This document shows positions 30,492 to 61,342 of a stretch of 64,000 nt of DNA, piece by piece (within the stretch, counting starts at the first letter, position 1; each line of letters opens with the position of its first letter). The stretch spans positions 1 through 64,000 of the forward strand of contig NZ_FNQE01000012.1 in assembly GCF_900107485.1 (NCBI RefSeq), given 5' to 3'. The position numbers and the translations under genes were made by a program. This DNA is from Proteiniborus ethanoligenes (GTDB taxonomy: Bacteria; Bacillota; Clostridia; Tissierellales; Proteiniboraceae). The notes below the pieces were generated by a model. That model was not told the origin of the DNA. It ran no database searches and was given only the letters and a program-made list of their open reading frames with translations.

Positions 30492-30606
30492 TTTTATTTA
30501 TTCCCAAATAGAATGCCAAGGAGACAAGTTGATAATGGGTCCCAATCCTCATCTCCTTAGCAGAATAGTCTAAGACAACATTATTCTGATCAAATATCTA
30601 CGCTAG

Positions 30607-30770
30607 TCTATTTATACAAACCTACATATATTCATATAGGCCCATATTAATAAAATAACACATTCATGTTCCAACAAGTCAGATGCATAGAACTTAGATA
30701 ACCTCCTAAAAATAGTAATATGAATGCTAATAGGATCAGAGGATGCAATTTTGAGCATCCTCTGTTTTTT
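30607..30770. repeat. Dispersed 165-bp repeat, copy 1
   Basis: It matches copy 2 (47263-47427) along its whole length and copy 3 (55178-55260) over its first half. Shared blocks include TACAAACCTACATATATTCAT, TAACACATTC and TCTAACAAGCCTGATGC-like sequence. It ends in a 10-bp hairpin (CAGAGGATGC/GCATCCTCTG) followed by six T, a good plus-strand terminator. All three copies have the same orientation. Read on the minus strand, the copies also share a short peptide-like frame (ASDLLEHECVILLI versus ASGLLENECVTLFI), so it could derive from an old coding sequence. Confidence 0.7.
30737..30770 (+). terminator. Terminator hairpin at the end of repeat copy 1
   Basis: CAGAGGATGC pairs with GCATCCTCTG around an eight-base loop, followed by TTTTTT. 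It may terminate the DUF1232 transcript or an RNA made from the repeat itself. Confidence 0.7.
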
Positions 30771-39487: not shown

Positions 39488-39498
39488 ATATCTTCCCC

Positions 39499-42400: not shown

Positions 42401-43572
42401 TCTAGTCTATATGTGTTATCTTCTAAAAAAATATGCACACTAGCTATTCGTTGATTATTACTGTACCTGAAGTAATATTTATAAATAGCACTATAAATTT
42501 TTCGAATAGATACTTCAGGTATATAAATTTGCGAAAAAATTTCTGATAAATTAGTCTTTTCTAGGTAACGTCTATCTTCTGAGTTAATATTAAACTTATC
42601 TGCTACTTCTTTTAATACTTCCATAGCTAATAAGGCATCTTTATATTGATAATCACCCTTACCAAAAAATTCAGGCCAATATCCATTACTGTCCTCATCG
42701 TTATATCTATATATAGCTGTAAAAATTAATATCAATGATGTAACAAAAGGATAGTTTTGAACTGTTATCTTGATACCATACCTGTTTATATATGAATCAA
42801 ATTCCAGCTTTAATTTTACATAATCCTCATTCTTGAAGCTGAGCCAATCATAGGCTACCTCAAGACATATATGATTTTTTTTATTTAACATTTGATGGAA
42901 CTTTATTCTTTTTTCAAGTTTTTCCAATGATAAGAATTCTTCCTTATCTGATTGAAAGGCGCTATTATTGTATTCTTTTACAACTAGTGATTCTCCGTTT
43001 AGTAAGGCTTGGAGACAATTTGAGATATCGCGATATATTGTGTCTTTGTTGCTATAAATATATTTAACCCAATTCTTATCTATAATAATTTCATTTTGTC
43101 CTTGAGTTTCAAATAAATCATTGTTGCATTTCCATTCGCTGATCAAATAGTTATTCCAATAATTAAAACTAGCGTTAGTAATCTTATTGTTATCAATTGG
43201 ATTCCTTAGGTAGCTTAAAGATTTTTTCACCATGCCTAATAGTTTAATATTAACTTGTTTGTCGTTCATATACTTTAAAATCTGAGTAACATCTTCCTTC
43301 ATTGAAATCATAGAAAGACCATATTTGATTATTAAAGTGTTTTTTATTTCATTGAACAACTTTATTTCAGAAGATTGTTCTACTTTAGACAAATCAGTAT
43401 TCCAATACTCCGACACAATTTCATATGCGAAATCTAAATAGCTTAGTTTAGACTTCCCTTTAGTAACAATGTCTATTAATTTCTTTAAGCACATTAAATC
43501 AATTACCGAAATACTGTTGAATTCAGCAAAAATATTAGTTCTAACATCCCCTTGTTTGAATAGCACCTCCAT
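39499..43572 (-). CDS. 1357-aa protein of unknown function, partner of the DEAH helicase
   Basis: I recognise no enzymatic motif. The N-terminal 450 residues are helical and charged. About 480-950 is rich in beta strands of Ig-like character (YTLVIS-type strands such as GYYSLLISCKERTITKETF and VRFNLLVHGITVPISKVILPI). The C-terminal 350 residues are helical. It opens a three-gene operon with a GGGGGATTTGCAAA site before ATG. A very large domain-poor protein directly upstream of a DruE-like helicase is the layout of Druantia type III (DruH-DruE), so a DruH-like role is a reasonable guess; homology is not shown by anything I can see. Confidence 0.6.
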   Translation of the reverse strand: MEVLFKQGDVRTNIFAEFNSISVIDLMCLKKLIDIVTKGKSKLSYLDFAYEIVSEYWNTDLSKVEQSSEIKLFNEIKNTLIIKYGLSMISMKEDVTQILKYMNDKQVNIKLLGMVKKSLSYLRNPIDNNKITNASFNYWNNYLISEWKCNNDLFETQGQNEIIIDKNWVKYIYSNKDTIYRDISNCLQALLNGESLVVKEYNNSAFQSDKEEFLSLEKLEKRIKFHQMLNKKNHICLEVAYDWLSFKNEDYVKLKLEFDSYINRYGIKITVQNYPFVTSLILIFTAIYRYNDEDSNGYWPEFFGKGDYQYKDALLAMEVLKEVADKFNINSEDRRYLEKTNLSEIFSQIYIPEVSIRKIYSAIYKYYFRYSNNQRIASVHIFLEDNTYRLDKPGIFFLSEDKIIDNPFNKIMEMFNNCLDNKENIEAIDYLPKRFLTSFEKWIESDKVDIDSQKEEYYIANPRIRFDIPNEKLLLMLPQQRSKTYSDEICGWNIFIDDSPKKFIDGRIIKRKDGVYIVLDEEIELTYYENIKIEYVFNNKVVGKWQIENTNSFILFNEYGYYLKSDKLNRSKCVIGIINSEYKDQVHVLDKITLKNWKGYIFYYLDLEDISQREIVFSGSGKEIIFEIDDRPSVKRNSYKLAFEKRETSPHNFEGINIYEDIGTFSFHAPNIDANDIEVRLRPLNNNNNFEYSSCYRIRQKNSNSIEIDFDKDKLPKGYYSLLISCKERTITKETFILIDPIEYNDGFGMSYEKINNKHEKFILEKGLHYQIEPSHITCLVSEDMNNYYIEPSNVAKVRFNLLVHGITVPISKVILPIRWDITGLETVVDNKDHNQVREISKQAFDNSDIRLQIINYDYRYKTLTYKLEIKEINNNESIVETRKLGYGDQFNFQFKNIRDRLIDFHNISIKIVVLNEEQEILYEQIILNVAKKIKMLNLKSEFIENVLIISWDEEYSNKSRILKLYNYINPWKNPLEFELSDGITEVIVALDKIDYGYYLPVLDYKKEYSLFDNIQEKRDFFKKNDIKNIIANDIAIKVENEDFILGELLQCYANGQSNNSQLFEGLKNTSALSISKVFMTLTQMRYFTVDQNHVETFIKDSFRILNLIISREGYERVLNGLLNMTNYLNNQDMKLCVTMLLATRKDKEISNEKIDLLSEINIIDALCSVKNGSGALTSNLKSRCVSTFERELLSIARKHKEISNVVRNEIEIINSFWSWITEYKNSYILKYDYSLPRAFRIYEFEKDISTMKVNGNKIDDLVENIKCDNNCSYFKLPEELANRYKITKEQFNTIKDLLETNMNDYYRSLLISAFLSIVPVETMSDDDYYKMIMEEYFGKRWELFERYRAFFKLIFI

Positions 43573-44289: not shown

Positions 44290-46002
44290 TTATTTTATAA
44301 ATTTATCAATTGATTCTCTTTTATCTGGTATTGTATAATATATAGCCTCATCAGCATTCCAAGCTATACCACTTCTAACACTTCTCCCGTCCTGTTTTAT
44401 TAATTTTGTTTCAATTAAATCTTGAGCTGCACTAATAATACTTCTTATATCTTTATTTAAGTCATCACTAATCTTCTGGATTGTAACTCCATGTTCCTGT
44501 GCCCTTAGATATCTCAAAATACTAATACACTCTTCTTTTAGGTATCTCTTCATCAAACAAACATCTATATCTACATCCTTTAGTTTTGGATATGTCTCTC
44601 TAATTCCTGCTTTAATAACTTCAAGATAATCAATGCTTGGAATGACCTCTTGTATATCACGAAGTTCATGGGTAATGGTCTGAATTGGTATTCCTCCTTG
44701 AAATCCTAAATTTACTTTTTTATTATACCAAGATGGTCCATTTCCTTCCTGCTGATGAATCTCTTCAAACTGTTCTTTAGTGATTAAGTACATTTTTCCG
44801 TAGCTTTTACCTCTTTTACTTATATCAAGAAAAGCTACCCCTTTGTTATTCCATCTACTACTATGATTTGCAAAGTAAATTGGATATTTTACGATTATTG
44901 GTTTTTCGTCAACAGGAGGTGTTTTATCCCTACATCCACTCCTAATTGCATCTCCTAAAATATACTTCATAAAACGTTCTTTGTTAATATTAGATCCATA
45001 GCAAGCATACCACACATAATTTGTGTAGATGTATGCTACACCTTCAAACCAAGGTTGATACACAAAATCAATTTTGGTTTTACCTTCAATAGACTGATTA
45101 TATACATAAACATATGCGTCTATTTTCTCATTTTTATCGCTATAAACTTGAGCTATTACTCGTTTATACAGTAAGCCTTCTGCTTCATAGATATCAAGCT
45201 CATGAATCTTATCTTCTGATATATAATAAACTTCACCTTTTACTCTTCCATCTTTGCTCTCTACTATTCCAGGATAATATCCTAAATCATATAGAGAGTA
45301 ACCGCTCAAAATACCTTCTCCTCTAAACTCTGCTTCCTCTAAATAAGATTGCTTCTGTCTATTACTCTTCATTAATGTTCCATAAACAAACAAAAATACT
45401 TTTTTCTTATTATTCATTTTATTCAGTACATCCTCCATCCTCAATGAAAATTCCTCATCATAGTCAAATCGAGTGTTTCCCTCTTTCAATAATTTTTCAA
45501 TTTCTGATTTACTAAAATATATCAGTTCAGTAAATTTTTCATGTTTCTCGGGATATAGTTCAATAAATCTCATTATATCTGCCTTAAGCAAGGTTTTTAT
45601 TGCATTAATTCTAAAACTAAAGGAACTAAATCCATGACCAACAAGTTTTCCTTTTTCTAAAATGTTAAGAGCTCTAATAAGTGTGGTATCAAATCCCTTT
45701 AAATTATTACATAATTTAGGATAGTTTAATTGAAATTTAATCATAATTGAAGTGAATAATATAGTTGGATATTTCCAATATTCAACTTTTGCATCATATG
45801 GTATATCATCACTAGAAATTAGTCTCCAATATCCATCTGAATCTTGATTTGAGACTAGCTCTTCTATTAGCACGATTAGTGCTTGTACATCTGCTTTACC
45901 TTCAACCTGGTTAATAAATAAGTTGTAACTCTCTTCCATTTGGATTCTAAATTCATTAAAGTTCTCTCTGCTTGGATTTGCTTTGTTTAATAATTTTCTC
46001 AT
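44290..46002 (-). CDS. Double gamma-glutamylcyclotransferase-like protein with C-terminal winged helix
   Basis: The 570-aa protein is a fusion. The first 200 residues are helical and unrecognised (NQDSDGYWRLISSDDIPYDA). Residues about 205-305 form an AIG2/GGCT domain (VFLFVYGTLMKSNRQKQ, YYPGIVESKDGRVKGEVYYI). A second GGCT/ChaC-like domain follows at about 330-460 (YACYGSNINKERFMKYILG, then a K-x-Y-L-I block with a Glu in the following helix). A winged helix ends it (ILRYLRAQEHGVTIQKISDDL). GGCT enzymes cleave gamma-glutamyl amides and release 5-oxoproline. Two such domains plus a DNA-binding end suggest a regulated enzyme or a peptide/tRNA-modifying defence effector. GGGAGGTAATAAT fixes the start. 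Confidence 0.7.
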   Translation of the reverse strand: MRKLLNKANPSRENFNEFRIQMEESYNLFINQVEGKADVQALIVLIEELVSNQDSDGYWRLISSDDIPYDAKVEYWKYPTILFTSIMIKFQLNYPKLCNNLKGFDTTLIRALNILEKGKLVGHGFSSFSFRINAIKTLLKADIMRFIELYPEKHEKFTELIYFSKSEIEKLLKEGNTRFDYDEEFSLRMEDVLNKMNNKKKVFLFVYGTLMKSNRQKQSYLEEAEFRGEGILSGYSLYDLGYYPGIVESKDGRVKGEVYYISEDKIHELDIYEAEGLLYKRVIAQVYSDKNEKIDAYVYVYNQSIEGKTKIDFVYQPWFEGVAYIYTNYVWYACYGSNINKERFMKYILGDAIRSGCRDKTPPVDEKPIIVKYPIYFANHSSRWNNKGVAFLDISKRGKSYGKMYLITKEQFEEIHQQEGNGPSWYNKKVNLGFQGGIPIQTITHELRDIQEVIPSIDYLEVIKAGIRETYPKLKDVDIDVCLMKRYLKEECISILRYLRAQEHGVTIQKISDDLNKDIRSIISAAQDLIETKLIKQDGRSVRSGIAWNADEAIYYTIPDKRESIDKFIK

Positions 46003-46097: not shown

Positions 46098-47093
46098 TTA
46101 TATATAGTCATAATCAATCCTTAACACTTCATTAATATCTAATTTTCTTATCCTTGTCCCATATAATGAATCTTTGACAAATATATCTCCTTTAGCTATA
46201 TCGTAATCTATGTAACAATCCTTAATTATTTCCATGTCATCATTATTCATATGAATCGTACACTTGACTCCAGCCTTCCATAAATACAATATAGCATCTC
46301 TCTTTTTATCAATAATCATTTTCTCTTCATCTTTACTACCATTATATGTATCAAACTCATCTACATAGGGAAACCTGATTCCTAATTCTCTACCCTTCAT
46401 GTCAATCTTATTTCTTGCATAGTCAGATAGTTGGCAGTATATTTTGTTTGCTAAATCATCATAGGTTTTGCTTGCTATATTTCTTTGATCTTTTGAAAGG
46501 GATTTAAGCCCCATGATTAAATAGTATACCTCTGTCATGTTAAGTGGAAGGAATATCGGATGAATGGTAGATTGATAGGTTATTTTATTTTGTTCTTTTT
46601 GAATATCACGGATTTTTACCTCTTGTCCAAGAATTTTCGTGCCCATTACTAGCTGGTTTATGTCACTTTCCAATGGCTTTCTGCTAATACTATAATGATC
46701 CATTAACTCACTCTTCGTCATGCCTTTATTTAGTGTTTTTAATAAGTCTACTAGTCTTTCGTATGGGTTCAAAGTTTCTCTTTCAAATACTTTACCTAAT
46801 TCCAACTCTATTTTATATTTCTTCTGCAAATACTCTGAAAATGAAACAATTCTTTTCTGAGTATATTCTTTATTATTTCTTGTTTTCTTTAACAGCTCAT
46901 AGAATGCATCCACGATACTTGGTCTATATTCTTTTCTTGCCTGTAAAGATTCTAAACTAATATTATAGTGTACTTGCTCTTCTTTTAAATATGGGTCTAA
47001 TTCCCCTAACAAAAGCTTTGTCACCTGTTCTTTTTCTTCTTTGCCTTTTACCTTTTTGACAATGTATTCTTCTATTGCATGCCTAAGATCCAT
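46098..47093 (-). CDS. HTH/WYL-like transcriptional regulator
   Basis: The 331-aa protein has a helix-turn-helix-like segment in the middle (GMTKSELMDHYSISRKPLESDINQL). A beta-rich C-terminal third (CTIHMNNDDMEIIKDCYIDYD, GTRIRKLDINEVLRIDYDYI) resembles the WYL-type effector domain of defence-island regulators. The start at 47093 follows AAAGGGGCAAATAC; an in-frame ATG 20 codons upstream has no site. It sits just upstream of the GGCT-fusion gene, with a palindrome between them, and would be a plausible repressor of it. The WYL assignment is tentative, since the W-Y-L triplet is not seen. Confidence 0.5.
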   Translation of the reverse strand: MDLRHAIEEYIVKKVKGKEEKEQVTKLLLGELDPYLKEEQVHYNISLESLQARKEYRPSIVDAFYELLKKTRNNKEYTQKRIVSFSEYLQKKYKIELELGKVFERETLNPYERLVDLLKTLNKGMTKSELMDHYSISRKPLESDINQLVMGTKILGQEVKIRDIQKEQNKITYQSTIHPIFLPLNMTEVYYLIMGLKSLSKDQRNIASKTYDDLANKIYCQLSDYARNKIDMKGRELGIRFPYVDEFDTYNGSKDEEKMIIDKKRDAILYLWKAGVKCTIHMNNDDMEIIKDCYIDYDIAKGDIFVKDSLYGTRIRKLDINEVLRIDYDYI

Positions 47094-47262
47094 ATGTATT
47101 TGCCCCTTTCTGATACATATAATTGTTAAAAGATAACAACCATTCCCATTCAAATAGATTTATTTATTATTAATTCTATTTGAATTTATATATATCCTTC
47201 TATTTGATTTCATCTTCTTGCCTAGAAAGCTCTTAGCATTATTGCCATACCATCCACACTGA

Positions 47263-47427
47263 TCTATATCTGTACAAATCTATATATTCATATATGTGAT
47301 GTAGTATAAATAAAGTAACACATTCATTTTCTAACAAGCCTGATGCAAAGAGTTTAGATGAACTTCTAAAAATAATAATAGTAATGCTAATAAGAGAAGA
47401 GGATCAGTGACATCCTCTTCTCTTATT
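47263..47427. repeat. Dispersed 165-bp repeat, copy 2
   Basis: This full-length copy, related to 30607-30770 and 55178-55260, has the same orientation. It carries the shared blocks TGTACAAATCTATATATTCAT, AAAGTAACACATTC and CTAACAAGCCTGATGC. It ends in a perfect 16-bp hairpin. It separates the regulator/GGCT genes from the Hsp70 cluster. The flanking bases 47154-47262 and 47428-47514 hold nothing else that I can name. Confidence 0.72.
47389..47427. terminator. Perfect 16-bp bidirectional terminator
   Basis: AATAAGAGAAGAGGAT pairs exactly with ATCCTCTTCTCTTATT around a seven-base loop, with A and T runs on both sides. On the minus strand it lies downstream of the repeat-protein gene and can end the Hsp70 operon transcript. 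Confidence 0.75.
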
Positions 47428-47514: not shown

Positions 47515-47889
47515 TTATTTCTTAACTTTCTTAATATCTATTTCGTCATCTTCAGTTGCATTTTTACTGTTATTATTGTAAGTTATTCTTTTAATATCGA
47601 CTTCATCATCAGAAACAGCATTTCCTACAGCTTTTTTACCTATCTTTTTGATATCAACTTCTTCATCATCTGGTACATTTTTTTCTTTAGTTTTCTTACT
47701 TACTTTTTTGATGTCAACTTCTTCTATTGGAGTCGGCTTTTTAATATCTATCTCTTCCTTATCACTATCAATGTCGATTACCCTTAGTCTAGTAAATGGC
47801 GAAATAGTCCCTTCATTAATATTGTACTTCAATATTTGCTCTTCACTTATATCATATCTTTCTTTTTCTCCCAATTTTAGTGTACTCAT
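47515..47889 (-). CDS. Small protein with five [DE][VI]DIK repeats
   Basis: After an N-terminal segment of about 40 residues (LKLGEKERYDISEEQILKYN), the 124-aa product repeats a short motif five times at 10-24-residue spacing: EEIDIKKPTP, EEVDIKKVSKK, EEVDIKKIGKK, DEVDIKRITY, DEIDIKKVKK. The linkers are charged and probably disordered. Such spacing is typical of a multivalent ligand, here most simply for the Hsp70-like protein encoded 13 bases upstream or another operon member. AAAGGGGAGCATTAA supports the start. It is the last gene of the operon. I know of no family for it. Confidence 0.7.
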   Translation of the reverse strand: MSTLKLGEKERYDISEEQILKYNINEGTISPFTRLRVIDIDSDKEEIDIKKPTPIEEVDIKKVSKKTKEKNVPDDEEVDIKKIGKKAVGNAVSDDEVDIKRITYNNNSKNATEDDEIDIKKVKK

Positions 47890-47902
47890 TTAATGCTCCC
47901 CT

Positions 47903-49426
47903 TTATTTATTTATTTCAAAGAATCTATTCTCAATTGGTATATCTAGCTTTTCATCCCACATTGAATCGTAAATATGTAACTCTAATCTATCGCTATTTT
48001 CATCTATTGTAAAGTATAACTTGAAACTTGAATTTGTCATTTCTTTTTCAATGGGAATATATGCTTTCCCTATTTCTTCATCGTTTTCACAGATACTAAC
48101 TTTAAATGCGTTTCTCCCTCTAGCGTTTGTGGTTAACTCAAATTCCTTATAACATTCTTCTGTATTTAGTTCTTTTATTTTTTTACCTTTGTTAAGAACT
48201 GTTTCTATAATATCTTTTTGACCATATTCATCCTTCATTTTGACTCCATAGTCATGTTCCAGAATATCATTGTATTTGTTTGCATTTGGATCATAGCCCC
48301 TTAAAGCTAATCCTCTTGCAATACTTGTCATTGCATCCCCATTCACTTTTATTTTATCTCTGCCGAAAATTTCATATAAAAGTTCTTGTACAGCTGGGGT
48401 TAATGAACTTCCTCCCGCAAGTACGACTATGTCTATATCATTAGAATTAATTCCTGATTCATTTAAACAGTCCAACACTAATTCTCTTATTTCTCTAAGA
48501 TAGGAACTTATAGCTAATTCATATTCTTTTTTTGTAATCTCAATATTCATTTTTAGGTTTCCTTTTTCAAAGGCTATTGTCGTAAAGTCGTATCTTGATA
48601 ACTCTTCTTTTGCTATTCTAATTTGATTCATTAGTTCTATACCTTCTTGTACTGATAGCAGATCTTCTATCCTATTTATTCCCAGATCTCTTTTAAGACT
48701 TCTCATCCCGTATTTTTCTACAACGATATTTTCAAGTATAGCCTTGTCAAAGTCATCTCCACCAAGATTTAATCTGCCTTTTTTAGAAATAACATCATGA
48801 GGAGATATCTCGTTTGCATTTCTAATATTCTTCATATCCATTATAACTAAGTCTAAGGTTCCACCCCCAAAGTCAAAGACTAAAACTCTTTTGTCATCTT
48901 TTAATGATAAATTATAATTTAATACTGAAGCAATAGGTTCAGATACAAAAATTGTATTAGCTTTGGCAATGTTATAATCCTTATATATTCCTGATTTCAA
49001 CATAGCCCTTAAATACAACTCCTTGTCCTTGTCTTTAAAGCCAATAGGTATACCTATGGCCACTCCTCCTATTTGAGTACCATATGGAATTTGTGATTCA
49101 ATTTTTTTCATAATTGCGGATAGAAAATCAGAGACTATGTCTAAATCAGATTTGTTTTTAACACCTGCAATTTTAAGTGTATCGCTTACTATTTGCCTTT
49201 TTAGTGAATTAACAAATCCATATGGATATTCGTATGAGTGTATTAATGCATCTTCACCTATCCAATAATTAGTTTCATCCTTGTAGGTAATAATCGTTCT
49301 AATAGTATCACTTCTATCTAAATCAAAACATTCAGGACTAAATACAGACCAAATGTTATTATATTTCATATAAGCAACAGAAGTATTTGTAGTCCCAAAA
49401 TCTATACCTATAGAAATATTTTTCAT
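47903..49426 (-). CDS. Hsp70/DnaK-like ATPase of a putative defence operon
   Basis: This 507-aa protein has the actin-like ATPase signatures of Hsp70: phosphate-1 IGIDFGTTNTSVAYM at the N-terminus, phosphate-2 VLVFDFGGGTLDLVIMDM (about 190), GRLNLGGDDFDKAI, and adenosine motif IVVLAGGSSLTPAVQELLYEIFG (about 340). The ATPase domain runs to about residue 390. Only some 115 residues follow, so the substrate-binding part is much shorter than DnaK's and lacks a clear lid. No DnaJ or GrpE gene is near. Its ATG directly abuts the stop of the 924-aa gene. It is more likely a dedicated switch for this operon than a general chaperone. Confidence 0.85.
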   Translation of the reverse strand: MKNISIGIDFGTTNTSVAYMKYNNIWSVFSPECFDLDRSDTIRTIITYKDETNYWIGEDALIHSYEYPYGFVNSLKRQIVSDTLKIAGVKNKSDLDIVSDFLSAIMKKIESQIPYGTQIGGVAIGIPIGFKDKDKELYLRAMLKSGIYKDYNIAKANTIFVSEPIASVLNYNLSLKDDKRVLVFDFGGGTLDLVIMDMKNIRNANEISPHDVISKKGRLNLGGDDFDKAILENIVVEKYGMRSLKRDLGINRIEDLLSVQEGIELMNQIRIAKEELSRYDFTTIAFEKGNLKMNIEITKKEYELAISSYLREIRELVLDCLNESGINSNDIDIVVLAGGSSLTPAVQELLYEIFGRDKIKVNGDAMTSIARGLALRGYDPNANKYNDILEHDYGVKMKDEYGQKDIIETVLNKGKKIKELNTEECYKEFELTTNARGRNAFKVSICENDEEIGKAYIPIEKEMTNSSFKLYFTIDENSDRLELHIYDSMWDEKLDIPIENRFFEINK

Positions 49427-52201
49427 TTATATCCCCCTTATTTTTAGATTATTTAATAAAGTACTTAACATTATATTTTCATTATCAATTCTAATTCCTA
49501 AAGAATCTACTATTCCCTCGTCAATGCCTATTGGTTGATTGTTTTCATGCCTTTTATTATTAAAACTAACCTTTGTCCCATAATTATCTATATCTTCAAC
49601 TGTATCAATCCCAACCTCTTTTAATGATCTCCTTAATTTTCTAATATTCTCTATTAGTGTATCGCTTGTAACATCACTACTTCTAGTTATTATTGTTTTT
49701 TCTATATTACTTAAAGGTTTACTAATGCTTGTCCCTATTATTTTTAAAGTGCTTTTCTTTACTGAATCGTTTTCTTGCTTGCTTTGTAGAATGATTCTAT
49801 TATATTTATTCAATAAGATTAATAAGCTTTCTATTACTTCCACATATATTTCGTTGGGAAGGGTTTTAGTATCAATTATATCTAAAAACCATTCTATTCT
49901 ATCTTTAGTATTAGTTAGATTGGAAAAAAAGGACTCCATTTTTTCTCTACTACTATTAGAGCTTCTAGCGTTCAGCTCTTTATTGATATTATCCCAATAA
50001 TACTCCCATATAGTATTCTCAGAAGTATTTATCATTAGCTTTTTAATAATATAATCAACTATTCTCTTATCTAACTCCTGATGAAATGTTTCATCCTTTA
50101 CAAACTTATCGACTAGACTAAAAAGCTCTAACTTACTTACCAGTTTATCTAATAAGTCTGGTGCCCCTTCAACTTCAACACTAATATCTAGTAGGCTTAT
50201 ACTGATTAACGAATATGCTTTTATTTTAGCTATTGCTACAAGACCAGGATTGTTTATTCCATAACAACTTGATATCTTAAAAATATCTTCCAAGTCTTGT
50301 AAGCAATTGGCTTCAACTAATAATATTTCTTTAATTACGCTTACAATCTTTCCATTATCTCCTGATTTATGCCACATATCCATTAAATATTCTTTTTGTT
50401 CTGGTAATATTACATTTCTGTATAAAGTAATAGGTTCTATTCTAATCATGTCTAAAAAGTCTATAACTTCTTTTGTTAATTCAATCTCCTTCCGAGCTAA
50501 CATATCAAAAATCTCTTCTTTATATTTAGTTTCGCTAATTACATCTAGTGAAAGATTCCCCCATATATCTACTAGCATATAAAAATCATTTCTTAGCAGG
50601 CCTTCTACTATTATTAAGGAACAATTACGCCTAATATCCAGACTTTCTATTTTCTTAAGTACTTCAATAATATAGCGATTGTCTTTATTCGCTAAAGCCT
50701 GTTCAATTTCTTTAGCATAATGATCCTCAAGCAAACTTGGGTCTATCACTTCAATTGCTCCTTTAATGATTCCTTGATTTTTTTCCCCAAAGTCTTTGAT
50801 TTCCATTAGAACACTTTTATCCTCACACTCATAATCAAACATGAGCATAAGCTTTATATATTTTTTATCATCATCTAACTTATTCTTAATAATCTTGATA
50901 AAATATTCCATCATTATAGAATACAAAGCATTGTTTGAATCCCTCATCATACTCAAAAATAGGTAGTTTTCCTTAAGTGATTTTTTTCTAAAAAAGAGAA
51001 CTAGGATTTTAGGATTTAAGTCTTTATCTAATTCTAGATCTTCATCAGATTTATCTATCCTAACTATGAATTTATTTTCTTTTGTTTGTTCTAACTTATC
51101 ATAAATATACTTTTCCACATTTTTATTTCTAAGCAGTCGCAACTCCCCTTCAAATATCATATCAACTATTTCATAAAATCCCTTCATGGATTTTAGTTCT
51201 ACTAAAACTTCAAAAAAGTCATCTTTTAATTCCTTGTCATTTTTCATATGGTTCTTAATAATATCAGCAATTTTATCAGTGTTATCTTGACTTAGATTTT
51301 TGTCTCCTGCAATATAACTTACAATTTTAATTCCAATTTTTCTTCTTAATGTATCCGTCCCCAACAGGTTATCTGATAAGTAAATAAGCCATTCATATGA
51401 ATATGAACTTAAATCCTTGTTCATAATTTCATATTTAAGTCTATCTTCATCCTTGATATCAAACATCCAAGTTAATAGTAATAGTTCTTCCTTGTCTACC
51501 TCAAATTTGTATTGGCTAAGTAAATTGATGTTTTTTGCCAAAGTCATCAATGTGTTAAAATCCCTTAAAACTATATTCCTATTAATTGTATCAATCAAAT
51601 CGTCTTTAGCTTTATAATTATTTAATACTAGTTCTAAAATAGAATTACTATGGTAAGGCTGTAAGGTATTGATTTCATTTAGCATTTTCTCTGTGTCTAT
51701 CGAACCAGGAGATGTGCTATTGACATCACTTAATAGCCCATACAGATACCCTCTTTCTTGATCTTGGTGTAAACATATTTCATAAAGTTGCTTTTTTAAT
51801 TCCTGAGTTTCCGCTTCCATGATAATCCTTAGTGAGTACTCACAATCATTTGAATAAAGAACCTCAAATGTTCTTGATTTTAGTGTTGAGTCATTAATGC
51901 TTTTCATTAAGTCATAAAGAAAAGCTGCTATACTTTCTTTGAATTCCGATATCTTAAACTCATCAAATGAATTCACAATTTCTTCAAGAGTTTTTAGTTC
52001 ATCTCTTAGATTTCTAATCAAACTCTGTCTATCTTTTGAAGTTAGATGTTTGAAACTGTTAAGAATAACTTCTTTCCTATACTCAATTTTCCCAAACTTT
52101 GTTTTTTGTGAAGTATTTTCAATTAAGTCAGGATTCATTAGAAACTCTAGAATGTTTTTAAATTCTTTTGTACCTTTTTTGTCTAGAAAACTAAGATCCA
52201 T
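49427..52201 (-). CDS. 924-aa helical protein of unknown function
   Basis: No catalytic motif is visible. The sequence is almost entirely amphipathic helices with many Leu/Ile/Lys/Glu blocks (LLLTWMFDIKDEDRLKYEIM, KSMKGFYEIVDMIFEGELRLL), consistent with an alpha-solenoid or scaffold. The C-terminal 150 residues (ENIRKLRRSLKEVGIDTVEDID) differ and could be a binding segment. It is sandwiched without gaps between the zinc-ribbon protein and the Hsp70-like protein; both junctions are a stop codon followed directly by ATG, which implies tight stoichiometry. A sensor or scaffold role is inference. Confidence 0.6.
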   Translation of the reverse strand: MDLSFLDKKGTKEFKNILEFLMNPDLIENTSQKTKFGKIEYRKEVILNSFKHLTSKDRQSLIRNLRDELKTLEEIVNSFDEFKISEFKESIAAFLYDLMKSINDSTLKSRTFEVLYSNDCEYSLRIIMEAETQELKKQLYEICLHQDQERGYLYGLLSDVNSTSPGSIDTEKMLNEINTLQPYHSNSILELVLNNYKAKDDLIDTINRNIVLRDFNTLMTLAKNINLLSQYKFEVDKEELLLLTWMFDIKDEDRLKYEIMNKDLSSYSYEWLIYLSDNLLGTDTLRRKIGIKIVSYIAGDKNLSQDNTDKIADIIKNHMKNDKELKDDFFEVLVELKSMKGFYEIVDMIFEGELRLLRNKNVEKYIYDKLEQTKENKFIVRIDKSDEDLELDKDLNPKILVLFFRKKSLKENYLFLSMMRDSNNALYSIMMEYFIKIIKNKLDDDKKYIKLMLMFDYECEDKSVLMEIKDFGEKNQGIIKGAIEVIDPSLLEDHYAKEIEQALANKDNRYIIEVLKKIESLDIRRNCSLIIVEGLLRNDFYMLVDIWGNLSLDVISETKYKEEIFDMLARKEIELTKEVIDFLDMIRIEPITLYRNVILPEQKEYLMDMWHKSGDNGKIVSVIKEILLVEANCLQDLEDIFKISSCYGINNPGLVAIAKIKAYSLISISLLDISVEVEGAPDLLDKLVSKLELFSLVDKFVKDETFHQELDKRIVDYIIKKLMINTSENTIWEYYWDNINKELNARSSNSSREKMESFFSNLTNTKDRIEWFLDIIDTKTLPNEIYVEVIESLLILLNKYNRIILQSKQENDSVKKSTLKIIGTSISKPLSNIEKTIITRSSDVTSDTLIENIRKLRRSLKEVGIDTVEDIDNYGTKVSFNNKRHENNQPIGIDEGIVDSLGIRIDNENIMLSTLLNNLKIRGI

Positions 52202-52867
52202 TTAGTTGTCCCCCCTTGTATATTTGCAGTATATGCAATGATTAAAATCGCTGTATGTTTTCTCTCCACATTTGTTACATATAGCTCTTACGATTTTTTC
52301 TTCCTTAATAACATTTTCTCGAACATATTTTACCAATGGAACTTGTAACGTTTTTTTATTTATATCTAAATACTTTTTAGCAAAGTCTTCCAAGTCTAGT
52401 AATAAAGAATTTAGGATTATGGCTTCATGATCTGTGTTATTTTTTATTTCTTTCATATTATCTATAATGTATAGAGCATATTTTTTAATAAGATTAGAGA
52501 TATAATCTTTAAAGTTAATTTTATTTCTGTCAACCTGAACATTCCTAAGCGTTTTAAATTTGGGGTCATACCTATAATTAATATAACTTTCCTTATCTGC
52601 AAGAAGATATTTTTTTTGGTCATTAAGGAACTTAAGAAGAAGAGGAGTATGTATAACATTAGCCATGTCGTTAACGAGTTCTAGCCATCTGTCTATTTTA
52701 ATTAATTCTCTTAGAACTAATTGATATTCCTCTTCCTTCGATATCAGTTCAAGGTTATGCCTAACTTTTTTCTTAAATTCCTTAAATGAAATAGAATTTA
52801 TCCCCTTATCATACATCCTATTATTAAATATCTCCATATTATCCTCAGCATATTTTGCCCATCCCAT
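52202..52867 (-). CDS. Zinc-ribbon protein of the Hsp70 operon
   Basis: The 221-aa protein is helical over its first 190 residues (RHNLELISKEEEYQLVLRELIK). It ends in a four-cysteine zinc ribbon, CNKCGEKTYSDFNHCIYC, within the last 30 residues. The ribosome site GGGGG precedes ATG, and the stop directly abuts the next gene. A C-terminal ribbon usually serves nucleic-acid or protein binding. I do not recognise the family. A gap of 152 bases separates it from the SSB-tip gene upstream, which may hold a second promoter. Confidence 0.65.
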   Translation of the reverse strand: MGWAKYAEDNMEIFNNRMYDKGINSISFKEFKKKVRHNLELISKEEEYQLVLRELIKIDRWLELVNDMANVIHTPLLLKFLNDQKKYLLADKESYINYRYDPKFKTLRNVQVDRNKINFKDYISNLIKKYALYIIDNMKEIKNNTDHEAIILNSLLLDLEDFAKKYLDINKKTLQVPLVKYVRENVIKEEKIVRAICNKCGEKTYSDFNHCIYCKYTRGDN

Positions 52868-53019
52868 CTCGCATCCCCCTTCTTGCTCATCAATTTAATT
52901 ATAATACAATTATTTTAAATTTTCTGACATATTTTGTCGAAATTATATTGTGTCAATATTATTGTTGTACTTTATGTTAGATTATATTGTGATCTTGTAT
53001 TTTTAAGAAATCCATAATA
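52868..53019 (-). promoter_or_regulatory. Possible internal promoter/operator region
   Basis: On the minus strand a TTGACA (52951-52956) is followed 17 bases later by AATATG, a weak -10. TGACA and TGTCA lie in inverted order around it, which could be an operator. A separate TATAAT lies near the gene but without a -35 partner. Confidence 0.3.
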
Positions 53020-53691
53020 TTAAAATGGAATATCTTCATCATCATTGGAAGCGAATTGATTGTGAAATGATGCAAGATTAGGGATATTAATACTTGGCAT
53101 ATAATTTTTAAAGCGATTTAATATACTTCTAACTCTGTTGTCATACTTCATAAGTACATTTAAATCTATATCTGATATTTCGTACAATTCATTAGCTACA
53201 TGTTCTGATAAGTATGGATGAAGTAAATTTATAACTATATATTTATTATTTATAGCAAAGGTTTTGGCTTCTATGTTATTTTCTATATAAATCCTGAAAC
53301 TTCCAAGCAATTTATCTAATTGGTAGACATATGAATTGTTTTTTGAGATTGCTAATCTCTTTTGTTCTTCTTGTTCTTCATCAGTCCTTCCAAAACCGAA
53401 GTAAGCACAATCATCATACTCATTATATCCATCAAAAATATCAACACTACTAGCTTCATTCCAATTGTCAAATCCAACATTAACTATATCTTGTAAAATA
53501 TCTTCATCAATGTATTCTTCAAAATAATCTTCATTAGGTATCTTGCCATAGTTGATAAGCATAAAATCTTCTTCAATCTTTTTATGTGTTTTAGCTTGTT
53601 CATTTTCAATGTATGCATTTATTTCTTTATAATACTTTTTATTAGAAGGAAACATGCTACGTAAAGCATCTCCATCCTGCAAATCAATCAT
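53020..53691 (-). CDS. Acidic protein ending in an SSB-type C-terminal tip
   Basis: The 223-aa product is acidic throughout (YFEEYIDEDILQDIVN, GRTDEEQEEQKR). It ends exactly with ASNDDEDIPF, the same form as the C-terminal tip of bacterial single-stranded DNA-binding protein (D-D-x-[IL]-P-F). That tip recruits PriA, RecQ, RecO, exonuclease I and other repair proteins. I see no OB fold in the rest, so this is not an obvious SSB. It could borrow, mimic or compete for the SSB interaction network. Its ATG overlaps the stop of the lysine-rich gene by four bases. Confidence 0.65.
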   Translation of the reverse strand: MIDLQDGDALRSMFPSNKKYYKEINAYIENEQAKTHKKIEEDFMLINYGKIPNEDYFEEYIDEDILQDIVNVGFDNWNEASSVDIFDGYNEYDDCAYFGFGRTDEEQEEQKRLAISKNNSYVYQLDKLLGSFRIYIENNIEAKTFAINNKYIVINLLHPYLSEHVANELYEISDIDLNVLMKYDNRVRSILNRFKNYMPSINIPNLASFHNQFASNDDEDIPF

Positions 53692-54263
53692 ATCTTCAGC
53701 AGTATATACTTGGCTTTTTTCTTTTTTTGTTTTTTGAAGCTATTTTCTACAGAGAAAATTAAATTGAAGCTTCTTTCTTTCCTTTTATCTGGTATATATT
53801 CCATAAGTGCTATCCCATTATATTCAAAGCCTTCTTCCTTCTTTAGTTCATTATCTAATATATCGCAATATGAATAATCTTCTTTATGTTTAATCCTAAG
53901 CTGTCCATTAGTAATAGTTGATCCTGAAAATTTAACTAGGCTGATAATTCTCCATTTTTCCTTTCTTTGGTTAAATAAGTCCTCAAATGTAGCAAACTGC
54001 CAGCCTGATATTATTTTCATCTTTTCTAAAAATAGCTTTAAGTCTGTCTTGCCAATAGCTTTTGCATCTTTGAGGTCAAATTTAATAACTGAACTATTTC
54101 GTAAAACTTCAAATTTGTCACTGTCAACTTCAATTACATTGTATAAATGAAAATTTAAACCTGATTTGTTTGTTGATGTAAATTCATAATATTCATTTTC
54201 AACATAGTCCCACATATAAACTGATTTTTTCTTTTTACCCACAACTACAAAATGTTTCTTCAT
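53688..54263 (-). CDS. Lysine-rich 191-aa protein of unknown function
   Basis: The 191-aa protein starts MKKHFVVVGKKKKSVYMWD, has a beta-rich middle (NGQLRIKHKEDYSYCDILD), and ends in a very basic stretch, SFKKQKKKKAKYILLKI. The basic ends suggest nucleic-acid or membrane contact, and they contrast with the acidic partner translated next with a four-base overlap. An AAAGGAGG site lies before ATG, and the Smr-type gene ends four bases upstream. No family is recognised. The long A runs near its 3' end make it prone to frameshift, so its exact C-terminus is less certain. Confidence 0.55.
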   Translation of the reverse strand: MKKHFVVVGKKKKSVYMWDYVENEYYEFTSTNKSGLNFHLYNVIEVDSDKFEVLRNSSVIKFDLKDAKAIGKTDLKLFLEKMKIISGWQFATFEDLFNQRKEKWRIISLVKFSGSTITNGQLRIKHKEDYSYCDILDNELKKEEGFEYNGIALMEYIPDKRKERSFNLIFSVENSFKKQKKKKAKYILLKI

Positions 54264-54267
54264 AGAT

Positions 54268-54549
54268 CTATGCCTCCTTTAAATTTTCTCTAATGTTTCT
54301 TTTAATAATGAATGAAGTAACCCCAGGATTTAGCCACAAATATTTTCTACTTACATATTCTGATTCAAAATCATTTTGAACAAAATTCCGAAGCGCATCT
54401 CCCCCACGATATCCATGAATAACAACTATCTCATCTACGTTATCTAGAGTTAGTACTATACTTAGTTCTAAGTATCTTTTAGCTTCCTCAACTGTCATTC
54501 CATGAAGATCTAATTCAACGTGCTCTTTTGAAACAAAATAGGCTCTCAT
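54268..54549 (-). CDS. Small Smr-domain protein
   Basis: The 93-aa product is essentially one Smr (small MutS-related) domain. It has VELDLHGMTVEEAKRYLELS and EIVVIHGYRGGDALRNFV, matching the LDLHG and HGxxGxALR motifs. Smr domains are endonucleases or nucleic-acid binders, for example in MutS2 and ribosome-rescue SmrB-type nucleases. The start at 54549 has AAGGAGGGAAAAG upstream; a longer frame would run into the leader hairpin. It is the first gene of the putative operon and lies directly behind a folded leader RNA, on which it might act. Confidence 0.75.
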   Translation of the reverse strand: MRAYFVSKEHVELDLHGMTVEEAKRYLELSIVLTLDNVDEIVVIHGYRGGDALRNFVQNDFESEYVSRKYLWLNPGVTSFIIKRNIRENLKEA

Positions 54550-54574
54550 CTTTTCCCTCCTTATTTTTGTATAC

Positions 54575-54675
54575 AAAAAAGCACCAGCAACACTGATTAA
54601 GTCTAATTTCTGCACAACAAAATAGGCATCTATTTCGCTATGCAGTTACCAAAATTAATCACTATTGCTAGTGCT
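54575..54675 (-). ncRNA. Highly folded leader RNA with intrinsic terminator
   Basis: In the minus-strand RNA, AGCACUAGCAAUAGUGAUUAA pairs with UUAAUCAGUGUUGCUGGUGCU (one mismatch, two G-U pairs). Inside, a 16-bp hairpin is formed by CUGCAUAGCGAAAUAG and CUAUUUUGUUGUGCAG, all paired if G-U is allowed. Six U follow the outer stem. G-U pairs occur only in this orientation, so this strand is the one that folds. A promoter lies just upstream, placing the RNA's 5' end at the stem. It is either an attenuator for the Smr operon or a free small RNA of about 100 nt. I cannot match it to a known riboswitch class. Confidence 0.7.
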
Positions 54676-54682
54676 TGCATAA

Positions 54683-54711
54683 ATTATAGCATTGTTTATA
54701 TATTTTTACAA
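54683..54711 (-). promoter_or_regulatory. Promoter of the folded leader and Smr operon
   Basis: TTGTAA (54706-54711) and TATAAT (54683-54688) lie on the minus strand with a 17-base spacer. Transcription would start about seven bases later, at the foot of the leader's outer stem. Confidence 0.65.
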
Positions 54712-55177
54712 GCATTTTTTATTTTTTCTCAAATCTGCAGAAAAATCTTCAGTAAAGTTTCAAAATACATACTTACACTAAATTTTTAGTTTTTAATTCA
54801 CCTCGAGTAAATGTAGTTTCAAGTCTATGGTTTCTATGAAATTCAGCTAATTTATAAAGGGACATATCTAAGAGATTAAGTTTTCCTCTTAGACTATTAA
54901 TCAACTTATGCACCTTTTTCTCATTTTAATATATAAAAACTTGACTCGTTAGCCTATTATTTACCTTATTAAATACTTCATCTAAATTTTCTAATATGAA
55001 TGCTCCATATCCTTTCTAATTATATTTGTACTCAAGCTTTCCTATATATGCATAAAACTCTGATTCTTAATCTTCCTCTTGTCATAATGCTGTATTTTCT
55101 ATATTTCAAATTCTCGCCATACTTTCTAAATGCAAAGTTTCCATCTTGTCAATTTATAGTCATCATATAATGTTCGT
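54712..55177. other. Decayed coding sequence, unassigned
   Basis: On the minus strand several short in-frame stretches read like real protein (NSLRGKLNLLDMSLYKLAEF ending near 54790; GYGAFILENLDEVFNKVNN near 54970), but stops and frame changes separate them. This is probably one decayed gene. I cannot name it. No ribosome site or intact frame remains. Confidence 0.35.
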
Positions 55178-55260
55178 TCTATATTTGTACAAACCTACAT
55201 ATATTCATATAGGTGATGCATATGAACAAAGTAACACATTCTTTTTCTAACAAACCTGAT
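55178..55260. repeat. Dispersed repeat, copy 3, cut by an IS21-like element
   Basis: This copy matches the first half of copies 1 and 2 (TTTGTACAAACCTACATAT, AAAGTAACACATTC, CTAACAAACCTGAT) and stops abruptly at 55260, where the IS21-type end TGTTGATTGTCAAG begins. The second half with the terminator hairpin is missing from this site. Confidence 0.7.
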
Positions 55261-56918
55261 TGTTGATTGTCAAGTAAAATTGACCATCTGGCTAATATAT
55301 GTATTTGTCAATTAGAATTGTTTTTGAGTATTCCTCAATTTCTGTAGCCTCTTTATTTGTATTTGTTAATATGTAATCTTTATTTCTATTGCATAAAAGT
55401 TTTATTTTTTCTGTATTTATCCCTATTGGGCTTATTTTTTCTAAATCCTTAATTATGTTTTCTATTTTATCTAATCCGTATTGTGATATTATTTCTATTA
55501 GCTCTATGAAATCCTTTGGATTTTCTGTATAATATTTATTGTATATTGATTGAAGTCTGGGATTCATTTGTTGCATGGCTGTGCTTGAATGAATTGCCCC
55601 AGGCTTTCTTTTTAGTGTTTTTAGATAATGTTCAATTTTTATATTCCAAGTATGAGCACCATGATTTCTTATATGTTCAGCTACATTAATGTTGTTATGG
55701 TAAATTAATATTCTTTCTGGATATACTTTGGCTGTTACGAATTTGTCTACTAAAGCATCTGGTACTGAATATTTGTTTTCATCTATACTTACTACTGAAT
55801 ATTTACTAACCCTTATTTCAGCTGTCCTAGCAATATCATAACTCGGCATTAACTTTAGTAAATTTGGTAACTCTTCTTTTAAAATATCATTTGGGCTTTT
55901 ATCATCATATTGCTTATATATTTTGCTATTCAATTTATTTAATATTTCTTGTAAATATTTATTAGCTTCATCTAGTGTTTGGAATGAATCCTCTTTGCTA
56001 AAAACTTTTCTTCTTACATATTCAACGCTTTTTTCTACATGGCCCTTTTCATTGCCTCGCCTTGCATTACAGAATCGATATTTAAATCCATAGTAAATTG
56101 ATAATTTCAAAAGTTCTTCAGTTGGCTCTTTCTCTGTCCTGCTTACAAATTTAGCTACTGCTACTTTCATATTGTCATAAACTAGAGTTTTATGAACTCC
56201 ACCAACCCTATTGAAAAATTTTACATGGGAATCTAGGAAACTCTCCATCTTTTGATTTTGGTAGAGATGAGCAAATCTAAAATTTCCTTTTGCAGTTGTA
56301 AATACGGCCATTTGAACTATTTTAGGTTTATTACCTATTGTTAAATTTACATGGCCCCAATCAAACTCAGCTATGTCGCCTAATCCATATTCCTGCCTTA
56401 TATATGCTTCTTTTTCTAAATTTACCTTATCTCTTATGTAGTTACATACAGTTGGATAGCTTATATCGTAACCTTCATCTATTAGACATTCATAAATATC
56501 TATTTTCTTTTTCTGTTGCTTGCTTCTACCCGTTGATTTCTTTAATTCATTTTCTTTGTCAATCTTGTCTGTTATTTCATCAGTTAATTTTACCCTAGTT
56601 CTGCTGCTTGTATCATATTTGGGAGGTGTTACAATGTCTTCGGTTAAAACCAACCTATCTTCATTTGAATCCAATATTGCTTTTCTTTTTTCTTCATATT
56701 GATTAATATATTTTCTAATGGTTTTTCTATCAAATCCAGTTTGCCTATGAATATCCCATTGAGACTTTCCCTCTAAAAAATGTGATATTATTATTTCTTG
56801 CTTGTCCATTAAACTAATCATCCCCTTGCCCCCCTATGAAGTATCATAGGGTTATTTTATATTTCCTCTAGGGGAATTTTCAATTAGAATTTGGGGTAAT
56901 TTTAGATTAGCATAAACA
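55261..56918 (-). mobile_element. IS21-family element carrying istA only
   Basis: The lower end begins TGTTGATTGTCAAGTAAAA and TTGACCATC. A degenerate inverted match, GGGGTAATTTTAGATTAGCA then TAAACA, ends at 56918. Only istA lies between them, whereas IS21 elements normally carry istA and istB. The istA stop is inside the lower end. No clear target duplication is seen. It may be a deletion derivative that needs an IstB helper in trans. Confidence 0.6.
55292..56821 (-). CDS. istA: IS21-family transposase IstA
   Basis: The 509-aa protein has the IstA layout: an N-terminal helix-turn-helix (ISHFLEGKSQWDIHRQTGFDRKTIRKYI), and an rve-type DDE core with GDIAEFDWGHVNLTIG, LVYDNMKVAV and NARRGNEKGHVEKSVEYVRR. 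A Mu-transposase-like C-terminal beta domain follows (SVDENKYSVPDALVDKFVTAKVY). Length is typical. It appears intact. The downstream istB expected in an IS21 operon is absent; a truncated istB lies upstream instead. Confidence 0.92.
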   Translation of the reverse strand: MISLMDKQEIIISHFLEGKSQWDIHRQTGFDRKTIRKYINQYEEKRKAILDSNEDRLVLTEDIVTPPKYDTSSRTRVKLTDEITDKIDKENELKKSTGRSKQQKKKIDIYECLIDEGYDISYPTVCNYIRDKVNLEKEAYIRQEYGLGDIAEFDWGHVNLTIGNKPKIVQMAVFTTAKGNFRFAHLYQNQKMESFLDSHVKFFNRVGGVHKTLVYDNMKVAVAKFVSRTEKEPTEELLKLSIYYGFKYRFCNARRGNEKGHVEKSVEYVRRKVFSKEDSFQTLDEANKYLQEILNKLNSKIYKQYDDKSPNDILKEELPNLLKLMPSYDIARTAEIRVSKYSVVSIDENKYSVPDALVDKFVTAKVYPERILIYHNNINVAEHIRNHGAHTWNIKIEHYLKTLKRKPGAIHSSTAMQQMNPRLQSIYNKYYTENPKDFIELIEIISQYGLDKIENIIKDLEKISPIGINTEKIKLLCNRNKDYILTNTNKEATEIEEYSKTILIDKYIY

Positions 56919-56965
56919 ATATACTCATAAATTTAATATTTATATATTTCCAGGCGTCAATCTCA

Positions 56966-57025
56966 TGTTTTACATTTAAAATTGACCACCTGGATTAATT
57001 ATTTACGTTTAATTTTGACCACTTA
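56966..57025. repeat. Second IS21-type end with two internal repeats
   Basis: TGTTTTACATTTAAAATTGACC and then ACGTTTAATTTTGACCACTT lie in the same orientation as the end at 55261. Multiple spaced terminal repeats are characteristic of IS21 ends. They mark the right end of a second, truncated element whose body extends to the right. Confidence 0.6.
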
Positions 57026-57028
57026 AAT

Positions 57029-57463
57029 CTAGTTAATATTTATTTGGTATCCATCCTTTACTAAAGCTTGCTTATCAATCTCAATAGTCGCGGAATATCT
57101 ATTTAGTGTAATGTACTTGTTTAGCTCCAATAATTTTTCTTGCATTAGATCTCTGAATAGTAATTCCAGAATATCGTTGCTTCTAGTTGATAGAACTGGG
57201 GTTACAGGATCCATTGGAGTAATCCCTTTACTACATAATTCATCTAAACCCATAAATATTGACTCATCTTGTTTACTAGATTTTATGATTTTTCTATTTT
57301 CCTTATCATAACTATACTCAGGAGATTGCTTAATTCTTGATATTACTCCTCGAGGAGCTTTTATCCCATAGTTTTGTTGAATGTAGTCTATAGCTATTTT
57401 TTCTCCAGACTCATTGAATATATTAACTATTTTCTCATAGTCTTGTTTAGGAACATTTGCCAT
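57029..57463 (-). CDS. 144-aa accessory protein of an IS21-type element
   Basis: It starts immediately after the istB stop (TAG then ATG) and ends just inside the IS21-type end, so it is part of the element. The N-terminal half resembles a small helix-turn-helix protein (FNESGEKIAIDYIQQNYGIK, GVISRIKQSPEY). The C-terminal part (ILELLFRDLMQEKLLELNKYI) is helical. Some IS21 relatives carry a third gene after istB. I do not recognise the family; a DNA-binding helper is likely. Confidence 0.55.
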   Translation of the reverse strand: MANVPKQDYEKIVNIFNESGEKIAIDYIQQNYGIKAPRGVISRIKQSPEYSYDKENRKIIKSSKQDESIFMGLDELCSKGITPMDPVTPVLSTRSNDILELLFRDLMQEKLLELNKYITLNRYSATIEIDKQALVKDGYQININ

Positions 57464-57887
57464 CTATTTATCCTCCTTAGTATCTTTTCGATTACCTTCT
57501 AGATATTTCTCACCTTTGACACGGAAACTGTCGCCTGTTATACTAAGGATATGGCAATGATAAACTAATCTGTCTAGTATTGCGGTTGCTGCTAATTGAC
57601 CTGTAAATACTTCATCCCATCTACTTAGGGGAAGGTTAGTTATAATTATTAGGGAGCTTTTTTCATATCTTTGGCGGATAACTTGGAAAAATATGCTCTC
57701 TTTTTCTTTGTCCATTTTCAAGTAGGATAGTTCGTCTATTATTAACAATTCTACCTTGTTTAAAGCCTTTAAAGTCTGTTTTAGTATGTCTAAATCATTA
57801 AATAAAGATAATCTTAGATCTCGGTACTTGTTATAGAATATTTTCGTAATACTTTCTTGCTCTATTTCATTGGTTAAGTATAACTAA
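57464..57887 (-). pseudogene. istB: 5'-truncated IS21 helper ATPase gene istB
   Basis: The frame retains the C-terminal half of IstB: Walker B ELLIIDELSYLKMDKEK, sensor region SLIIITNLPLSRWDEVF, and AILDRLVYHCHILSITGDSFR. The Walker A half is missing. In-frame sequence continues upstream of the first ATG to about 57887 (DLDILKQTLKALNKVE) and then breaks at a join with a plus-strand gene fragment. The element is dead unless another copy supplies IstB. Confidence 0.8.
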
Positions 57888-61072: not shown

Positions 61073-61342
61073 GTTTGCCTCCTGTTCCAAAGTATATATA
61101 TTATTGAACTAATCTTTATTATTTATCTAATTCTACAACTATATTATAAATCCTTTAAAATTCTCCATAAAATGTGATTTGATTTATATTAGTAAGATAT
61201 TAAACTTGCTTGAAATTTTACTTAATATCATATGGAAAATTAGTTCAAGTATTTAAAAGACTGTATATTCTTCATTCTGTTATCGTATATGGAAAGTTGA
61301 CTATTTCTCCATTATTTCATTTTTAGTTAGCTACAATTTAAA

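Follow-up and report, generated by a model that had tools for sequence, protein, structure and literature searches.

Seven genes lying head to tail on one strand of a phage-defence island in Proteiniborus ethanoligenes appear to form two separable modules placed side by side, rather than one system. The downstream module, called module B, is read here as a self-contained accessory operon in which a private Hsp70-type ATPase would serve as a nucleotide-driven switch, not as a general chaperone. We advance these two proposals jointly and tentatively, granting them together somewhat less than an even chance of being correct. A sequence-only reading of the window (the whole stretch of DNA that was analysed, 64,000 nucleotides in length) had treated the seven open reading frames (ORFs) as a single system. 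All seven were found on the minus strand, with the following layout:

54268..54549 (longer ORF to 54615), minus strand: Smr-domain protein, module A gene 1 (PF01713, 1e-6), 93 aa from the likelier start
53688..54263, minus strand: lysine-rich basic protein, module A gene 2, 191 aa
53020..53691, minus strand: acidic protein, module A gene 3, 223 aa, pI 4.4, ending NDDEDIPF (the SSB-tip protein)
52868..53019, minus strand: intergenic boundary between the modules, 152 bp, with promoter-like sites inside
52202..52867, minus strand: zinc-ribbon basic protein, module B gene 1, 221 aa, with a C-terminal CxxC-x10-CxxC
49427..52201, minus strand: HEAT/ARM-like alpha-solenoid (predicted), module B gene 2, 924 aa, with a conserved C-terminal tail (about 800-924)
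47903..49426, minus strand: Hsp70-like ATPase, module B gene 3, 507 aa, linker and lid lost (PF00012, 5.9e-31)
47515..47889, minus strand: DIK protein, module B gene 4, 124 aa, an N-terminal domain of ~40 aa followed by five repeats
47389..47427: likely module B terminator 3′ of the DIK gene, a perfect 16-bp stem with a 7-nt loop, T-rich beyond on the minus strand

Most gene junctions had been described as overlapping or abutting. This holds for the zinc ribbon/924-aa and 924-aa/Hsp70 junctions, where a stop codon is followed by ATG with zero gap, and for the junction between the lysine-rich and SSB-tip genes, which overlap by 4 nt; the Hsp70 and DIK genes are separated by 13 nt. The description fails between the SSB-tip and zinc-ribbon genes, where the 152-bp gap lies. 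Promoter-like sites occur within this gap at 52940-52912 and 52930-52901, in a region whose number of such sites is no higher than in shuffled sequences. The adjacent modules share a strand, and they may be co-transcribed here. The cluster had also been given an extent of 47515-54711. Although the ORFs are present, the Smr gene probably starts at the ATG at 54549, judging from its 59%-identical relative at locus G219, which begins at the same methionine, and position 54711 marks the 5′ boundary of a promoter-like site (54711-54683). The stem-loop at 47389-47427 was recovered as an inverted self-match and is missing from the list produced by a stricter consensus scan.

The surroundings of the cluster bear out its earlier placement in a defence island flanked by a dispersed repeat. 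PADLOC matches in the island comprise BrxL, PglZ, an ATPase/toprim-like pair (PDC-M38), a UvrD-like helicase and a DruE-like helicase, and the genes that we call brxA, brxB, brxC and pglX are putative assignments from gene order and sequence. The PDC-M38A/B pair (19469-21237) is inserted between the BREX genes pglX and pglZ. At 34418-43572, the DruE-like helicase (PADLOC DruE1, 1.4e-187) adjoins a protein of 1357 aa that neither Pfam nor PADLOC matches, and this pair is perhaps a Druantia variant with an uncharacterised large partner. The Druantia-like operon is headed by a WYL/PafC-like regulator (46098-47153) just downstream of module B. Also inside the island is a 570-aa protein with a gamma-glutamyl cyclotransferase (AIG2-like) domain (44290-46002; PF06094, 8.4e-28), and a 747-aa protein carrying a Schlafen AlbA_2 domain (PF04326) and a PHP-like N-terminus lies at the island edge (58847-61090). 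The repeat has three copies, all in this island:

30592..30748: island repeat copy 1, 5′ of the minus-strand BREX operon
47248..47425: island repeat copy 2, bordering the cluster on its downstream side and 5′ of the WYL/Druantia-like operon (blastn; nhmmer 8.8e-42 with a profile built from the three copies themselves)
55159..55260: island repeat copy 3, upstream of module A and truncated at 55260, immediately ahead of an IS21-type transposase gene

The copies span ~100-160 bp with 77-87% pairwise identity, and the rest of the 3.16-Mb genome holds no sequence of comparable similarity. The repeat may serve as an operator common to the island operons or mark a cassette boundary. The IS21-type element starts right after copy 3 (55261-57750, with an istA gene and a separate istB-like fragment at 57464-57748).

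Module B is a very rare four-gene unit, with three loci known. When 84,980 species genomes were scanned with segments of the Hsp70 picked outside the general DnaK motifs, patterns that miss divergent relatives, two loci were returned, L041 and L042. Among 248 other genomes of the order, a single one (G193, whose contig sequence is the same as L041) was found to encode the 924-aa protein, which is absent from both other same-genus genomes searched, and module B is therefore accessory. At L042, a locus from Bacillota, the zinc ribbon, a 922-aa solenoid, Hsp70 and DIK protein are complete and in the window's order with tight junctions; a single frame change, either genuine or introduced by assembly, interrupts the zinc-ribbon gene there and leaves the cysteines in place. 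These conserved partners agree with the earlier suggestion that the Hsp70 is a dedicated one. L041 carries a decayed version of the module, having lost the zinc ribbon, solenoid residues 1-192 and the end of the DIK protein.

Other searches brought no further relatives to light. None was found in a scan of genome contigs with the 924-aa protein alone, by tblastn with this protein in plasmids and phages, or by degenerate-pattern scans of viral contigs with five queries, and tblastn with the Hsp70 in plasmids and phages gave DnaK-level matches only. A phylum-sample search with a 924-aa profile produced two short weak matches that we judged to be due to chance. Hsp70-like proteins with conflict-type neighbours at two loci, L009 and L013, proved not to be close relatives of the module B Hsp70.

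Because module B sits in an island in the window, neighbours a GmrSD_N gene in L041 and is patchily distributed, the role that this context makes likeliest is defence against phages or mobile elements. We give this assignment only moderate weight because the L042 neighbourhood is of the envelope/polysaccharide type. On its 8.4-kb contig, L042 lies between the end of galE upstream and VanZ and LytR-CpsA-Psr genes downstream, and no defence neighbourhood is visible. L041 follows murJ-like and VanZ genes and precedes an HTH gene and the GmrSD_N gene. By its own terms, the sequence-only reading would be refuted by homologues lying mostly apart, and the homologues of the two halves do lie apart; the context of module B is mixed, pointing to defence in the window and L041 but not in L042.

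Module B may instead have a stress or envelope-linked role. In its full form, this explanation holds that the module is an envelope or stress Hsp70 machine, acting on cell wall or polysaccharide, that was captured by the island and is not a defence unit. We regard it as unlikely, but it draws support from the L042 and L041 flanks and from their VanZ genes (L041:864-1304 and L042:5843-6316), whose proteins are 47% identical. However, these VanZ genes adjoin module B on opposite sides, no such genes are near module B in the window, and the distribution is patchy. Moreover, the junction in L041 falls within the solenoid gene and may therefore be an insertion scar. The presence of VanZ beside module B in both loci, which come from metagenome-assembled genomes, could reflect an integration hot spot, a functional link or chance.

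The other half of the cluster, module A, is known from two loci. The relative, at locus G219, has a Smr gene followed by one protein that fuses the lysine-rich and acidic parts. The lysine-rich protein is 33% identical to the N-terminal part of this fusion (E 8.6e-23), its one relative in the order, and the SSB-tip protein shares about 25% identity with the C-terminal part. A class sample of 391 genomes held no further relative of the lysine-rich protein, and tblastn in plasmids with the SSB-tip protein, the lysine-rich protein and the G219 fusion found none. In G219, the genes form an array (L049:8450-13409) of DarT1, a NADAR antitoxin, Smr, the fused lysine-rich/acidic protein and an ADP-ribosylglycohydrolase, downstream of ZorA/B-like and NYN genes. 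Database matches cover OmpA, NYN, DarT, NADAR and ADP-ribosylglycohydrolase, whereas the labels ZorA-like and OmpA-family ZorB-like are our own provisional reading. The only relative of module A thus adjoins DarT1 and NADAR-DarT1, resembling DarTG1 (DarT1 plus NADAR) neighbourhoods (PMC11543638, PMC11125620), although no DarT or NADAR was recognised among the window neighbours scanned. Module A is probably a separate nucleic-acid-processing unit of defence islands, which here happens to lie upstream of module B.

No module B gene is present in the 20-kb G219 stretch. Given that L042 has module B on its own and G219 has module A on its own, the dividing line of the cluster lies in the 152-bp gap. 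That all seven genes instead make up one defence operon, with the relatives being partial versions, is quite improbable: the genes do share a strand, short gaps at all junctions but one and a position between repeat copies 2 and 3, but each half occurs without the other in its own intact neighbourhood, the split coincides with the sole long intergenic gap, and none of the three module A proteins turned up in the genomes of L041, L042 and G193 (a search without a positive control there). We reject the proposed link from the Hsp70 machine to phage DNA through the SSB-tip protein because of the split and of a lost tip. The SSB-like tip itself is real, in that the window protein ends NDDEDIPF and the genome's own SSB ends DDDDIPF, but the only relative ends in the non-canonical NNEEGF, so that an acidic DDIPF-type end is not conserved.

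The body of the solenoid is the fastest-changing part of module B, and the Hsp70 and the solenoid tail are the best conserved. The Hsp70 is 67-72% identical to the L042 and L041 copies. It belongs to the Hsp70/actin-like superfamily by its PF00012 match and the motifs GIDFGTTNTS, VFDFGGGTLDL and GGSSLTPAVQ. In an alignment with the genome's own DnaK, K76, E163, D185 and T190 correspond to K70, E171, D194 and T199, and all are kept in the three copies. The protein therefore has in common with the DnaK/GrpE/DnaJ machine an actin-like ATPase fold and the K, E, D and T catalytic residues. It differs in being 507 aa long, with the VLLLD-type linker replaced by NDILEHDYG and a C-terminal part of ~125 aa from which the helical lid is gone, and in being encoded in an operon where Pfam and further family-model searches gave no match to a J-domain or GrpE family. 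Because the ATPase residues are kept and the linker and lid are missing, the protein is probably a functional ATPase, but one that DnaJ does not drive in the usual manner.

The 924-aa protein is 41-42% identical to the L042 and L041 versions. An AlphaFold2 model built from three sequences only consists entirely of helical repeats (mean pLDDT 72.9), with confident prediction for most of residues 1-370 and 490-730 and low confidence in the centre and tail. Foldseek matches this model to Kap121, SF3B1, CAND1 and other HEAT proteins, with E values down to 1.6e-5 and a probability of 1.00; the TM-scores are low because of flexible curvature and the weak centre. The predicted superhelix of antiparallel helix pairs is that of a HEAT/ARM alpha-solenoid. 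Identity to the relatives is 56-58% over the last 77 residues and 34-45% in the body (31% in the shortest stretch).

The solenoid tail has a putative, unproven likeness to the end of GrpE, reading as a helix pair followed by V-x-F-N-x-x-x-H-E and a beta hairpin. An hhalign comparison of the two gives P 0.026, with 3 of 300 and 7 of 400 column shuffles scoring as high and the unrelated HrcA at 17.2 versus 18.8, and these figures overstate any likeness because the comparison was picked after the pattern was seen. A model of the tail fragment has a pLDDT of 49, and GrpE is not among the 50 best Foldseek matches listed. A BAG domain was considered for this fragment and rejected (Foldseek E above 2, from a low-confidence model).

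The two remaining proteins of module B are small. The earlier identification of the CxxC-x10-CxxC ribbon and of five DIK repeats proved sound. The zinc-ribbon protein is 43% identical to its L042 relative and matches Zn_ribbon_15 (Pfam) below the cut-off. Copies of [E/D/G][V/I]DIK[K/R] number five in the window, four in L042 and two in the truncated L041, and the N-terminal domain of the DIK protein (~40 residues) is 62-76% identical among the copies. Putative weak relatives of this domain occur in short clostridial proteins that stand alone at L055 and L057 (per-genome E 2e-4 to 8e-4). The N-terminus of these proteins (L055:1501-1776 and L057:1360-1704) is of a KYxLKxGxxSPFTRxxI type, as in the DIK protein, though only partly so in L057. 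They also have a common C-terminus, [I/L]DIS[A/S]GVD, and belong to no Pfam family.

From these parts and the conservation observed among them, we infer a set of contacts and a ligand that could make module B a switch. The Hsp70 would cycle between nucleotide states as a dedicated switch. The fast-evolving solenoid body, together with the zinc ribbon, would form a recognition scaffold that meets a variable ligand, and the conserved solenoid tail would dock on the Hsp70, perhaps determining which nucleotide state the latter adopts. The DIK repeats would provide a multivalent peptide, either a client or a tether, to be bound by the C-terminal domain of the Hsp70 or by the solenoid, and their occupancy or release could constitute the output or clamp. 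No nuclease or other effector is recognisable among the module B proteins.

HspBP1 and Fes1 are ARM/HEAT-type nucleotide exchange factors of Hsp70, and thus offer a precedent for a helical-repeat partner. The predicted solenoid would be such a partner in module B, but it is much larger and has no sequence match to them. A more specific version of the scheme, which we think improbable, is a stand-alone immune switch wherein the HEAT solenoid drives the lidless Hsp70 with its own nucleotide-exchange-like tail. The DIK protein would then be a built-in polyvalent client that replaces both a J-protein and foreign substrates, making a sensor-relay without its own nuclease.

No described system has the composition of this cluster in Pfam, NCBIfam, PADLOC, PHROGs or the open-access literature searched, in agreement with the sequence-only reading. 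Confident family calls from these four resources were obtained for only two of the seven proteins, the Hsp70 and the Smr protein. PADLOC (PADLOC-DB of 2023) assigns no named defence system, giving 27.8 bits for the Hsp70 against PDC-M61B, in the generic ATPase region, and a weak Cmr5 match.

Two predicted classes come closest to module B. Type III-A CoCoNuTs combine Hsp70 and HEAT-like units and occur in superoperons with BREX and Druantia III, and CoCoNuTs are defined by an NxD McrB-type GTPase and McrC, with the Hsp70 unit CnuD fused to CnuC and its Walker A-like motif degenerate (PMC11090510). Some predicted conflict systems centred on GAP1-N2 GTPases carry Hsp70 and GrpE, also in Firmicutes (PMC7159879). 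Module B shares with CnuCD an Hsp70-like unit and a HEAT-like helical region, and with the GAP1-N2 systems a dedicated Hsp70, and perhaps works like the Hsp70 arm of these systems, by analogy. However, no GTPase match exists in the seven proteins. Since both classes are defined by GTPases that are unmatched here, we do not file module B as a member of either. It also lacks matches to FNIII, DnaJ and GrpE, its partners being the solenoid, zinc ribbon and DIK proteins.

That module B is a reduced relative of CnuCD or of the GAP1-N2 Hsp70/GrpE systems, acting as their RNA- or assembly-sensing arm, is suggested by the pairing of an Hsp70-like unit with HEAT-like helices or GrpE in those systems and by the CoCoNuT superoperons with BREX and Druantia III, but is very unlikely, as neither module B nor its scanned neighbours have a Pfam match to McrB, McrC/DUF2357 or a GAP1-N2-type family, and its Hsp70 is free-standing with intact phosphate-binding and catalytic residues, which sets it apart from CnuD as described.

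To our knowledge, Hsp70-type units recur in predicted bacterial conflict systems, namely CoCoNuTs and GAP1-N2 systems, always together with GTPases or nucleases. The two-module split proposed here keeps the SSB-tip and Smr proteins out of the Hsp70 mechanism. A compact four-gene unit in which the ATPase residues are intact and only a single scaffold and a single repeat-peptide protein are present would allow direct tests of what the Hsp70 itself does in conflict systems.
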